The position numbers and the translations under genes are program-made. A stretch of 64,000 nt of DNA from an uncultured Pelagibacteraceae bacterium (lineage in GTDB: Bacteria > Pseudomonadota > Alphaproteobacteria > Pelagibacterales > Pelagibacteraceae): positions 1 through 64,000 of the forward strand of contig CACKBP010000003.1 in the NCBI GenBank assembly GCA_902598315.1. Reading direction: 5' to 3'. The notes below the pieces were generated by a model. It saw only the letters and a list, made by a program, of their open reading frames with translations. It searched no databases and was not told where the DNA came from. Positions 34,599 to 48,208 of this stretch are shown here, piece after piece; the first letter of the stretch is position 1; each line of letters starts with the position of its first letter.

Positions 34599-34874
34599 CT
34601 AGAGTTTTATACCCTCTTTTTTTAGCAAAAATCTCTTAGTTTTTACACCTCCTCTACCTGAATAGCCTCCGAGCGACCCGTCAGATCTTATGACTCTATG
34701 ACAGGGTATTTTGGGTGCATAGGGGTTTTTTCCTATAGCATTAGCCACAGCACGTACAGCGAGCGGTTTTCCTATAGCTTTTGCCACTTGGGAATAGGTT
34801 TTAACGCTTCCACGAGGTATTTTTCTCAAATAAGCCCATACTTTAACCTGAAATACAGTACCCATTAACTTCAT
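34599..34874 (-). CDS. Short methylated-DNA-[protein]-cysteine S-methyltransferase family protein (Ogt/MGMT C-terminal domain)
   Basis: 91 aa; FQVKVWAYLRKIPRGSVKTYSQVAKAIGKPLAVRAVANAIGKNP..IPCHRVIRSDGSLGGYSGG-like; active-site PCHRV present. Confidence 0.93.
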   Translation of the reverse strand: MKLMGTVFQVKVWAYLRKIPRGSVKTYSQVAKAIGKPLAVRAVANAIGKNPYAPKIPCHRVIRSDGSLGGYSGRGGVKTKRFLLKKEGIKL

Positions 34875-35065
34875 TAGTCAAATAACAAGTAAATTGTTAG
34901 AGATATTCCTATTAAAAGGGCTATTATTAAGCCTATAGCTATCATTTTTTTGCCCTTTGAACTCGAGTTAGTCCAGAAGTAAGATATTCCATAAACCGCA
35001 GCTATAAATACCACTATAGGAAGAATAAATTTAATCATAGACTCAGAAATTATATGTATTGACAT
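34874..35065 (-). CDS. Small two-TM hypothetical protein
   Basis: 63 aa, two hydrophobic segments, ATGA overlap with the downstream ogt-like gene. Confidence 0.6.
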   Translation of the reverse strand: MSIHIISESMIKFILPIVVFIAAVYGISYFWTNSSSKGKKMIAIGLIIALLIGISLTIYLLFD

Positions 35066-35082
35066 CTAAAATCACTTAATAT

Positions 35083-35117
35083 ATTACTAATGATAATTAA
35101 TTGTTATCAATAGTAAT
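35083..35117. promoter_or_regulatory. Near-perfect inverted repeat (14-bp arms, 1 mismatch, 7-bp spacer); candidate recombinase core site or operator
   Basis: ATTACTAATGATAA-TTAATTG-TTATCAATAGTAAT immediately upstream of the tyrosine recombinase ATG at 35126. Confidence 0.6.
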
Positions 35118-35125
35118 TAAGACAT

Positions 35126-36079
35126 ATGAATGAGTTGATTACAGATATTAAAAAACTTCATGAGGATACGCTAAACAACCTCAAGTTATCTAAAGCTAAT
35201 AATACTCTAAGAGCTTATAAATCAGACTTTAAAGATTTTGCAGCATTTTGCGCAAAACACGGATTTAATTCAATTCCATCTGAACCTAAGGTTGTATCAT
35301 TATACCTTACACATCTATCTTCTAATTCAAAAATAAGTACTTTAAGACGTAGGCTCGTGTCTATTAGCGTTGTTCACAAACTAAAAGGACATTATTTAGA
35401 TACTAAGCATCCAATTATTATTGAAAATTTGATGGGAATCAAAAGAAAAAAAGGAAGTATTCAAATAGGCAAAAAACCTATATTAATCAATCATTTAAAA
35501 CAAATAATTAATGCAATAGACGAACAAAAAATAGAAAAAATAAAAAAATTAAGGAATCGAACATTAATACTTATTGGTTTTGGCGGGGGTTTTAGGCGTG
35601 CAGAATTAATTTCTATAGACTATGAAGATTTAGAATTTGTCGATGAAGGTGTAAAAATAACTCTAAGAAAGTCTAAAACGGATCAATTTGGAGAGGGTCT
35701 AGTAAAAGGATTGCCCTACTTCACCAATGAAAAATATTGTCCAGTTACAAGTTTAAAAAATTGGATAAACTTATCAAATATAAAAACTGGTCCAATTTTC
35801 AGAAGATTTGCAAAAGGATCAATATTAACAGGACATAGGTTAACAGATCAATCGGTTGTATTAATTATTAAAGATTATTTAAAATTAGCAGGGATAGAAA
35901 ATCAGAATTTTTCAGGACACAGTTTGAGATCAGGATTCGCAACAGTAGCCGCAGAGTCTGGTGCTGACGAACGAAGCATTATGGCAATGACCGGTCATAA
36001 GACTACACAAATGGTAAGACGTTATATAAGGGAAGCAAATATATTTAAAAACAATGCGTTAAATAAAATAAAACTATAA
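35126..36079 (+). CDS. Tyrosine recombinase / site-specific integrase
   Basis: 317 aa; catalytic R (GGGFRRAEL), K (RKSKTDQ), HSLR, GHKT, Y (VRRYIREA) all present. Confidence 0.95.
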   Translation: MNELITDIKKLHEDTLNNLKLSKANNTLRAYKSDFKDFAAFCAKHGFNSIPSEPKVVSLYLTHLSSNSKISTLRRRLVSISVVHKLKGHYLDTKHPIIIENLMGIKRKKGSIQIGKKPILINHLKQIINAIDEQKIEKIKKLRNRTLILIGFGGGFRRAELISIDYEDLEFVDEGVKITLRKSKTDQFGEGLVKGLPYFTNEKYCPVTSLKNWINLSNIKTGPIFRRFAKGSILTGHRLTDQSVVLIIKDYLKLAGIENQNFSGHSLRSGFATVAAESGADERSIMAMTGHKTTQMVRRYIREANIFKNNALNKIKL

Positions 36080-48148: not shown

Positions 48149-48164
48149 ATAAAAAAACTTAAAA

Positions 48165-48198
48165 AAAAAGGCCTAGTGATTATTCACTAGGCCTTTTT
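48165..48198 (-). terminator. Rho-independent-type hairpin between SBP and permease genes
   Basis: AAAAAGGCCTAGTGA-TTAT-TCACTAGGCCTTTTT, perfect 15-bp stem (10 bp plus A/T tract), U-tract on the minus transcript. Confidence 0.85.
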
Positions 48199-48208
48199 AA
48201 TATTTTTC

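Follow-up and report, generated by a model that had tools for sequence, protein, structure and literature searches.

The XerS/difSL system of Streptococcus and Lactococcus has one recombinase, whose dif site adjoins the gene at the terminus, and it is linked to FtsK (PMC5357621); XerS has 356 aa, the difSL centre is 11 bp long and the arms of the site are unequal. XerH/difH of Helicobacter and Campylobacter also works with a single recombinase (354-362 aa) and a dif site usually near the gene and at the terminus. In the Legionellales, the single recombinase XerL was overlooked by homology surveys; its dif site has long uninterrupted palindromic arms and is mimicked by a mobile element, and more than 400 kb separate xerL from dif in L. 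pneumophila (PMC9765430). The XerCD/dif system has two recombinases, an asymmetric site with a 6-bp centre and ATAA...TTAT inner half-sites, a terminus position, and FtsK and KOPS. Cre/loxP of phage P1 combines one enzyme with a palindromic site that has an asymmetric spacer of 8 bp, and the archaeal XerA/dif system has a single recombinase that was reported to be FtsK-independent (PMC5357621).

The locus described here lies in a stretch of 64,000 nucleotides (the window) from an uncultured bacterium of the Pelagibacteraceae (SAR11), in which a palindrome adjoins the gene of a single recombinase. It resembles XerS/difSL in its one enzyme, its adjoining terminus site and its probable link to FtsK, but it differs in enzyme length, site centre and arms, and the protein reaches only 43 of the 267 bits that the XerS model requires. 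The XerH fold is similar to that of the SAR11 protein (TM 0.62, predicted structure), although XerH is longer and the sequence similarity is marginal (E 2e-4). With XerL it shares, by description, the single enzyme overlooked in surveys, the uninterrupted arms and the mobile-element mimics of the site, whereas gene and site adjoin in SAR11. The inner half-sites, terminus position, FtsK and KOPS-like motifs recall XerCD/dif, but neither of its two recombinases is found in SAR11. Cre gives the best profile and fold match and its site has a comparable design, yet the SAR11 module is chromosomal, located at the terminus and present family-wide, its spacer is 7 bp long and the identity to Cre is about 20%. 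XerA (4a8e) is one of the closest matches by sequence whose structure has been solved, although its fold match is weaker. By analogy, the SAR11 module would work like XerS/difSL, XerH/difH and XerL, and mechanically like Cre/loxP.

The palindrome, ATTACTAATGATAA-TTAATTG-TTATCAATAGTAAT, occupies positions 35083-35117 of the window (no strand assigned) and is predicted to be a dif-like recombination site of type 1 (defined below) on the evidence of conservation, uniqueness and terminus position. The left half-site (35083..35096, plus strand) and the right half-site (35104..35117, plus strand) match at 13 of 14 positions and flank an asymmetric central region of 7 bp, TTAATTG (35097..35103, plus strand). 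Re-checking of the sequence agreed with the initial annotation on the 14-bp arms with one mismatch and the 7-bp spacer; the gap to the recombinase ATG at 35126, given there as 9 nt, is 8 nt (35118-35125). The repeat was also correctly placed between divergent genes, as two ORFs lie upstream on the minus strand, one of 63 aa (34877-35065) and one of 91 aa with an alkyltransferase domain (34599-34874; PF01035). The 91-aa protein consists of the DNA-binding domain of O6-methylguanine-DNA methyltransferase alone and is an alkyltransferase-like or reduced form. From 36093 onward, where the window carries glycosyltransferase genes, lies a variable region (described below), which begins right at the terminus module.

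Equally good repeats were rare in randomised sequence. The palindrome pattern occurs once in the window and in none of 100 shuffles, a repeat as good was found in 4 of 2000 Markov surrogates of the 251-bp intergenic region, and the whole window holds two other repeats of this quality, one of them terminator-like. The palindrome is real and not due to chance, and conservation provides the stronger test. Separately, we noticed a perfect inverted repeat at 48164-48199 of the window, AAAAAGGCCTAGTG-N6-CACTAGGCCTTTTT, which is probably a bidirectional terminator.

Wherever the recombinase gene was kept in SAR11 and upstream sequence was available, the palindrome adjoined its start (127 of 127 orthologues), a linkage as in the XerS and XerH systems. 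The distance between site and start was -2 to 14 bp at 126 loci and 58 bp at the remaining one, where the choice of start is uncertain. No similar palindrome was present upstream of nine XerD genes of the sister family. Across the 127 loci the core GATAATTAAT.GTTATC is nearly invariant, with GATAA and TTATC fully so, nearly all spacers read TTAATKG, and the two half-sites covary, namely at arm positions 5/27 (A-T or T-A), 7/25 and 6/26. The arms fall into two types: ATTACTAAY-GATAA...TTATC-AATAGTAAT at 107 loci (type 1) and ATTTCC-GATAA...TTATC-GGAAAT at 20 loci (type 2).

A scan of this genome and its relatives gave a single site per genome. The core was present in one copy, always at the recombinase gene, both in the genome from which the window comes and in 11 complete genomes; two extra matches with one mismatch in the same set look like chance. 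A weight matrix was also run over 3.6 Mb of fetched sequence: the window's site scored 49.6 bits, and no additional host site exceeded 15. The site is thus a palindromic, AT-rich, intergenic element of about 28-35 bp, one per chromosome. The canonical dif pattern CATAANNNNNNTTATGTTAA, with up to one mismatch, gave only scattered chance-level matches in SAR11. We also observed TATAATTACATTTATGTTAA as a single copy in each of many genomes from one sister-family genus (among G025-G039), where it may be the canonical XerCD dif of that family.

The adjacent gene (35126..36079, plus strand) is predicted to encode a Cre-like single Xer recombinase of 317 aa with the catalytic residues R157, K184, H265, R268, H291 and Y300. 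This R-K-H-R-H-Y set, which places the protein in the tyrosine recombinase superfamily, is invariant in 127 orthologues and was aligned to Cre. The protein is 81-92% identical to the products of other Pelagibacteraceae/SAR11 genes, and full-length orthologues have 304-319 aa. In a profile search its best full-length relative of solved structure was Cre (E 4e-13), followed by XerD and the archaeal XerA; the predicted structure (mean pLDDT 78) was closest to Cre (TM about 0.69), then to XerH (TM 0.62), and this predicted fold resembles Cre and XerH as bound to their sites. The NCBIfam equivalog cut-offs were not reached for XerD (74.9 bits against 329.6), XerC (67.8 against 335.15) or XerS (42.8 against 267), and the match to XerH was marginal, the SAR11 proteins of 304-319 aa being compared with about 355 aa.

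It was found that the recombinase is a single-copy gene across the Pelagibacteraceae. Five of the 40 family genomes that are at least 90% complete had no match (G052, G059, G068, G088 and G122), all of them drafts in which an assembly gap and true loss are indistinguishable. In the window's genome (83% complete) it is the only PF00589 tyrosine recombinase, and the adjacent gene is the only recombinase gene that could act on the site. No protein in 99 family genomes passed the XerD cut-off; most of these genomes had one clear match to the XerD model, at about 60-112 bits, and some had a weaker integrase in addition. The sister family served as the positive control for this search, and both an XerD-like protein (308-326 bits) and an XerC-like protein (244-258 bits) were detected in 13 of its 14 genomes. 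The Pelagibacteraceae have one Xer-type tyrosine recombinase and lack the XerC/XerD pair, and since 13 of the 14 sister-family genomes carry both, we infer that the single-gene state was derived in the Pelagibacteraceae or its stem. Carnoy and Roten (2009) stated that Pelagibacter ubique is without a dif/Xer system (PMC2731167), and the annotation of strain HTCC1062 includes a xerD, SAR11_1019 (PMC5069961), presumably the counterpart of the gene studied here. Our literature search found no paper that ties SAR11_1019 to a recombination site.

The position of the site on the chromosome was examined by cumulative GC skew, and it lies at the replication terminus as marked by the skew maximum. In five of five complete genomes the maximum coincided with the end of the interval in which the site is located, the skew being calculated from 20-kb blocks that covered about 28-61% of each chromosome. 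The peak was 1.0-2.9 kb away from the site in five contiguous stretches, the window's contig among them. An unbiased ranking of 7-mers gave GAGTAGG and GAGCAGG as the top strand-biased words aimed at the site. In the sampled chromosomes GAGYAGG pointed toward and away from it in a ratio of 182:36, and this polarity ranked first of 105 permutations, so the bias exceeds base skew. The E. coli KOPS consensus GGGNAGGG showed a ratio of 25:2 and ranked third of 56 permutations. For G102 and G062, motif polarity was best centred about 70 and 20 kb off the site, respectively. GAGYAGG(G) is a candidate SAR11 KOPS motif (sampled chromosomes L051-L170). An FtsK_gamma domain was found in 40 of 40 good genomes, so FtsK with its gamma domain accompanies polarised KOPS-like motifs that converge on the site.

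Site type and recombinase type agreed in all 127 cases. Type 1 sites occurred together with the presence of residues 226-237 and with Q242 (107 of 107), and type 2 sites with the lack of this segment and with K242 (20 of 20). In the window, the type 1-specific segment is encoded by codons 226-237 (35801..35836, plus strand), and codon 242 (35849..35851, plus strand), Gln in type 1 and Lys in type 2, aligns with Arg259 of Cre, which contacts loxP bases. On a recombinase tree built without the insert columns, site type changes once and genus changes 16 times, several branches being weakly supported; both site types are present within four genera. From this tree it seems that gene and site change hands jointly and move between lineages as a unit.

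The site also overlaps the predicted promoter of the recombinase gene. A predicted -35 hexamer, TTGACA (35059..35064, plus strand), matches the consensus and is followed after 17 bp by a predicted -10 hexamer, TATTAC (35082..35087, plus strand), which overlaps the left arm, so that the site covers the expected transcription start. TTGACW and TATTAY with 17-bp spacing kept the same offset at 120 of 127 loci, TTGACW lying at -26 from the 31-bp site. Since this would place the transcription start within the site, bound enzyme should prevent transcription, and autorepression of the recombinase gene is likely. In P. ubique, xerD and recA are both up-regulated in light (PMC3090418) and both respond to sulfur depletion (PMC5069961).

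With high confidence we regard the palindrome as the dif of a single-recombinase module for the resolution of chromosome dimers. The locus is best explained as a single-recombinase Xer/dif module of a new lineage, in which a Cre-like enzyme would act on a near-perfect palindrome. This reading draws on computed conservation, uniqueness, terminus position, motif polarity, absence of XerC/D, coevolution of enzyme and site, and promoter overlap. The product of 35126-36079 would bind each of the two near-identical half-sites. Once homologous recombination had joined sister chromosomes, the enzyme would exchange strands in the 7-bp centres of two terminus sites, the central region 35097..35103 being the expected strand-exchange region whose asymmetry sets the direction, and the dimer would become two monomers before division. 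FtsK, guided by the G-rich KOPS-like motifs aimed at the site, probably pairs the sites and triggers the reaction, and enzyme bound at the -10 region probably represses its own gene.

Could the palindrome be an autoregulatory operator only, with recombination taking place elsewhere or nowhere? The constant position beside the gene, the overlap of the -10 element with the left arm and the fixed offset of the -35 element would suit such an operator, which would likewise be conserved next to its gene. An operator alone, however, accounts neither for the position at the GC-skew peak and the convergence of KOPS-like motifs nor for the conservation of an asymmetric 7-bp spacer and the copies (described below) that SAR11 phages carry with no recombinase gene beside them, and we consider this reading improbable. 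The operator that the initial annotation had thought possible is supported as a second function of the site, and its view of the repeat as a dif-like core site of a tyrosine recombinase gained strong support from terminus position, single copy, conservation, covariation and the polarity of the KOPS-like motifs.

The same annotation had further proposed a self-contained cassette or inversion system, which did not hold up: inversion or excision needs two sites per locus, and with one site per genome there is no partner for either. More broadly, a tyrosine recombinase beside an att-like palindrome is what one would expect at the attachment site of an integrated element or island, with the adjacent gene as its integrase, or at an inversion switch. 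The genes that directly follow the recombinase differ widely between SAR11 genomes (31 clusters in 115 loci), and in the window they are rich in glycosyltransferases, which also fits. But there is neither an attL/attR pair nor an inverted partner, the gene is a single-copy, family-wide gene and not cargo, the upstream flank is largely common to SAR11 loci and the location tracks the terminus, so this explanation is largely refuted and very unlikely. Still less probable, to a negligible degree, is a transcription or RNA feature unrelated to the recombinase, such as a terminator or riboregulator. Dyad symmetry and a position in the 5' region of the gene are compatible with it, but no T-run follows the palindrome, the arms are conserved in sequence beyond what pairing alone would need, and the arm type tracks residues in the recognition region of the recombinase. 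A terminator or known RNA was rejected, as there was no Rfam match.

We also searched for the site in an annotated phage collection of 50,697 records, and the best matches were Pelagibacter phages in every search. Five phages stood out, and in all of them the sites were intergenic and on the upstream side of the terminase gene (terL): Greip (L281, 6001-6033), HTVC024P (L282, 6001-6070), HTVC100P (L283, 3001-3062), HTVC035P (L284, 3001-3061) and HTVC106P (L285, 2966-3028). Their half-sites scored up to 35.7 bits, compared with 36.7 for the host and about 17 as the highest value in shuffles. In four of the five there is a pair of sites, 29-37 bp apart, of which one resembles type 1 and the other type 2, and most of the remaining HTVC010P-type phages examined have weaker ATAA-N7-TTAT sites upstream of their terminase gene. 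HTVC010P-type phages have been called lytic for want of an integrase (PMC6811365), and HTVC100P has no annotated integrase. A homologue of their terminase was present in 8 of 397 SAR11 genomes; no integrated HTVC010P-type phage was found at the site, and on the sole contig with both, the terminase homologue was 180 kb away. The phage sites suggest that these phages may use the host enzyme for integration or genome resolution, a proposed likeness to IMEX elements, which likewise use the host enzyme. The wider proposal, that SAR11 swapped XerCD for a Cre-like recombinase/dif module with two specificity alleles exchanged as a unit, and that integrase-less HTVC010P-type phages recruit the host enzyme to dif mimics of their own, either for integration or for genome resolution, is put forward tentatively, its chance of holding in both parts being a little below even.

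SAR11 bacteria, which are among the most abundant cell groups of the ocean, serve as the textbook example of genome streamlining. The 2009 survey read the absence of dif/Xer in SAR11 as evidence that chromosome-dimer resolution can be lost through streamlining (PMC2731167). Our analysis points to the opposite: chromosome-dimer resolution seems to have been retained, with a different, self-contained module taking over the task. SAR11 thereby gains a mapped terminus site and a candidate KOPS motif, and the two types of enzyme and site offer a natural specificity switch that is directly testable. If the proposal on the phages is true, the supposedly lytic HTVC010P-type phages may depend on the host recombinase for their life style, and the site would be a possible route for abundant pelagiphages into the SAR11 chromosome.
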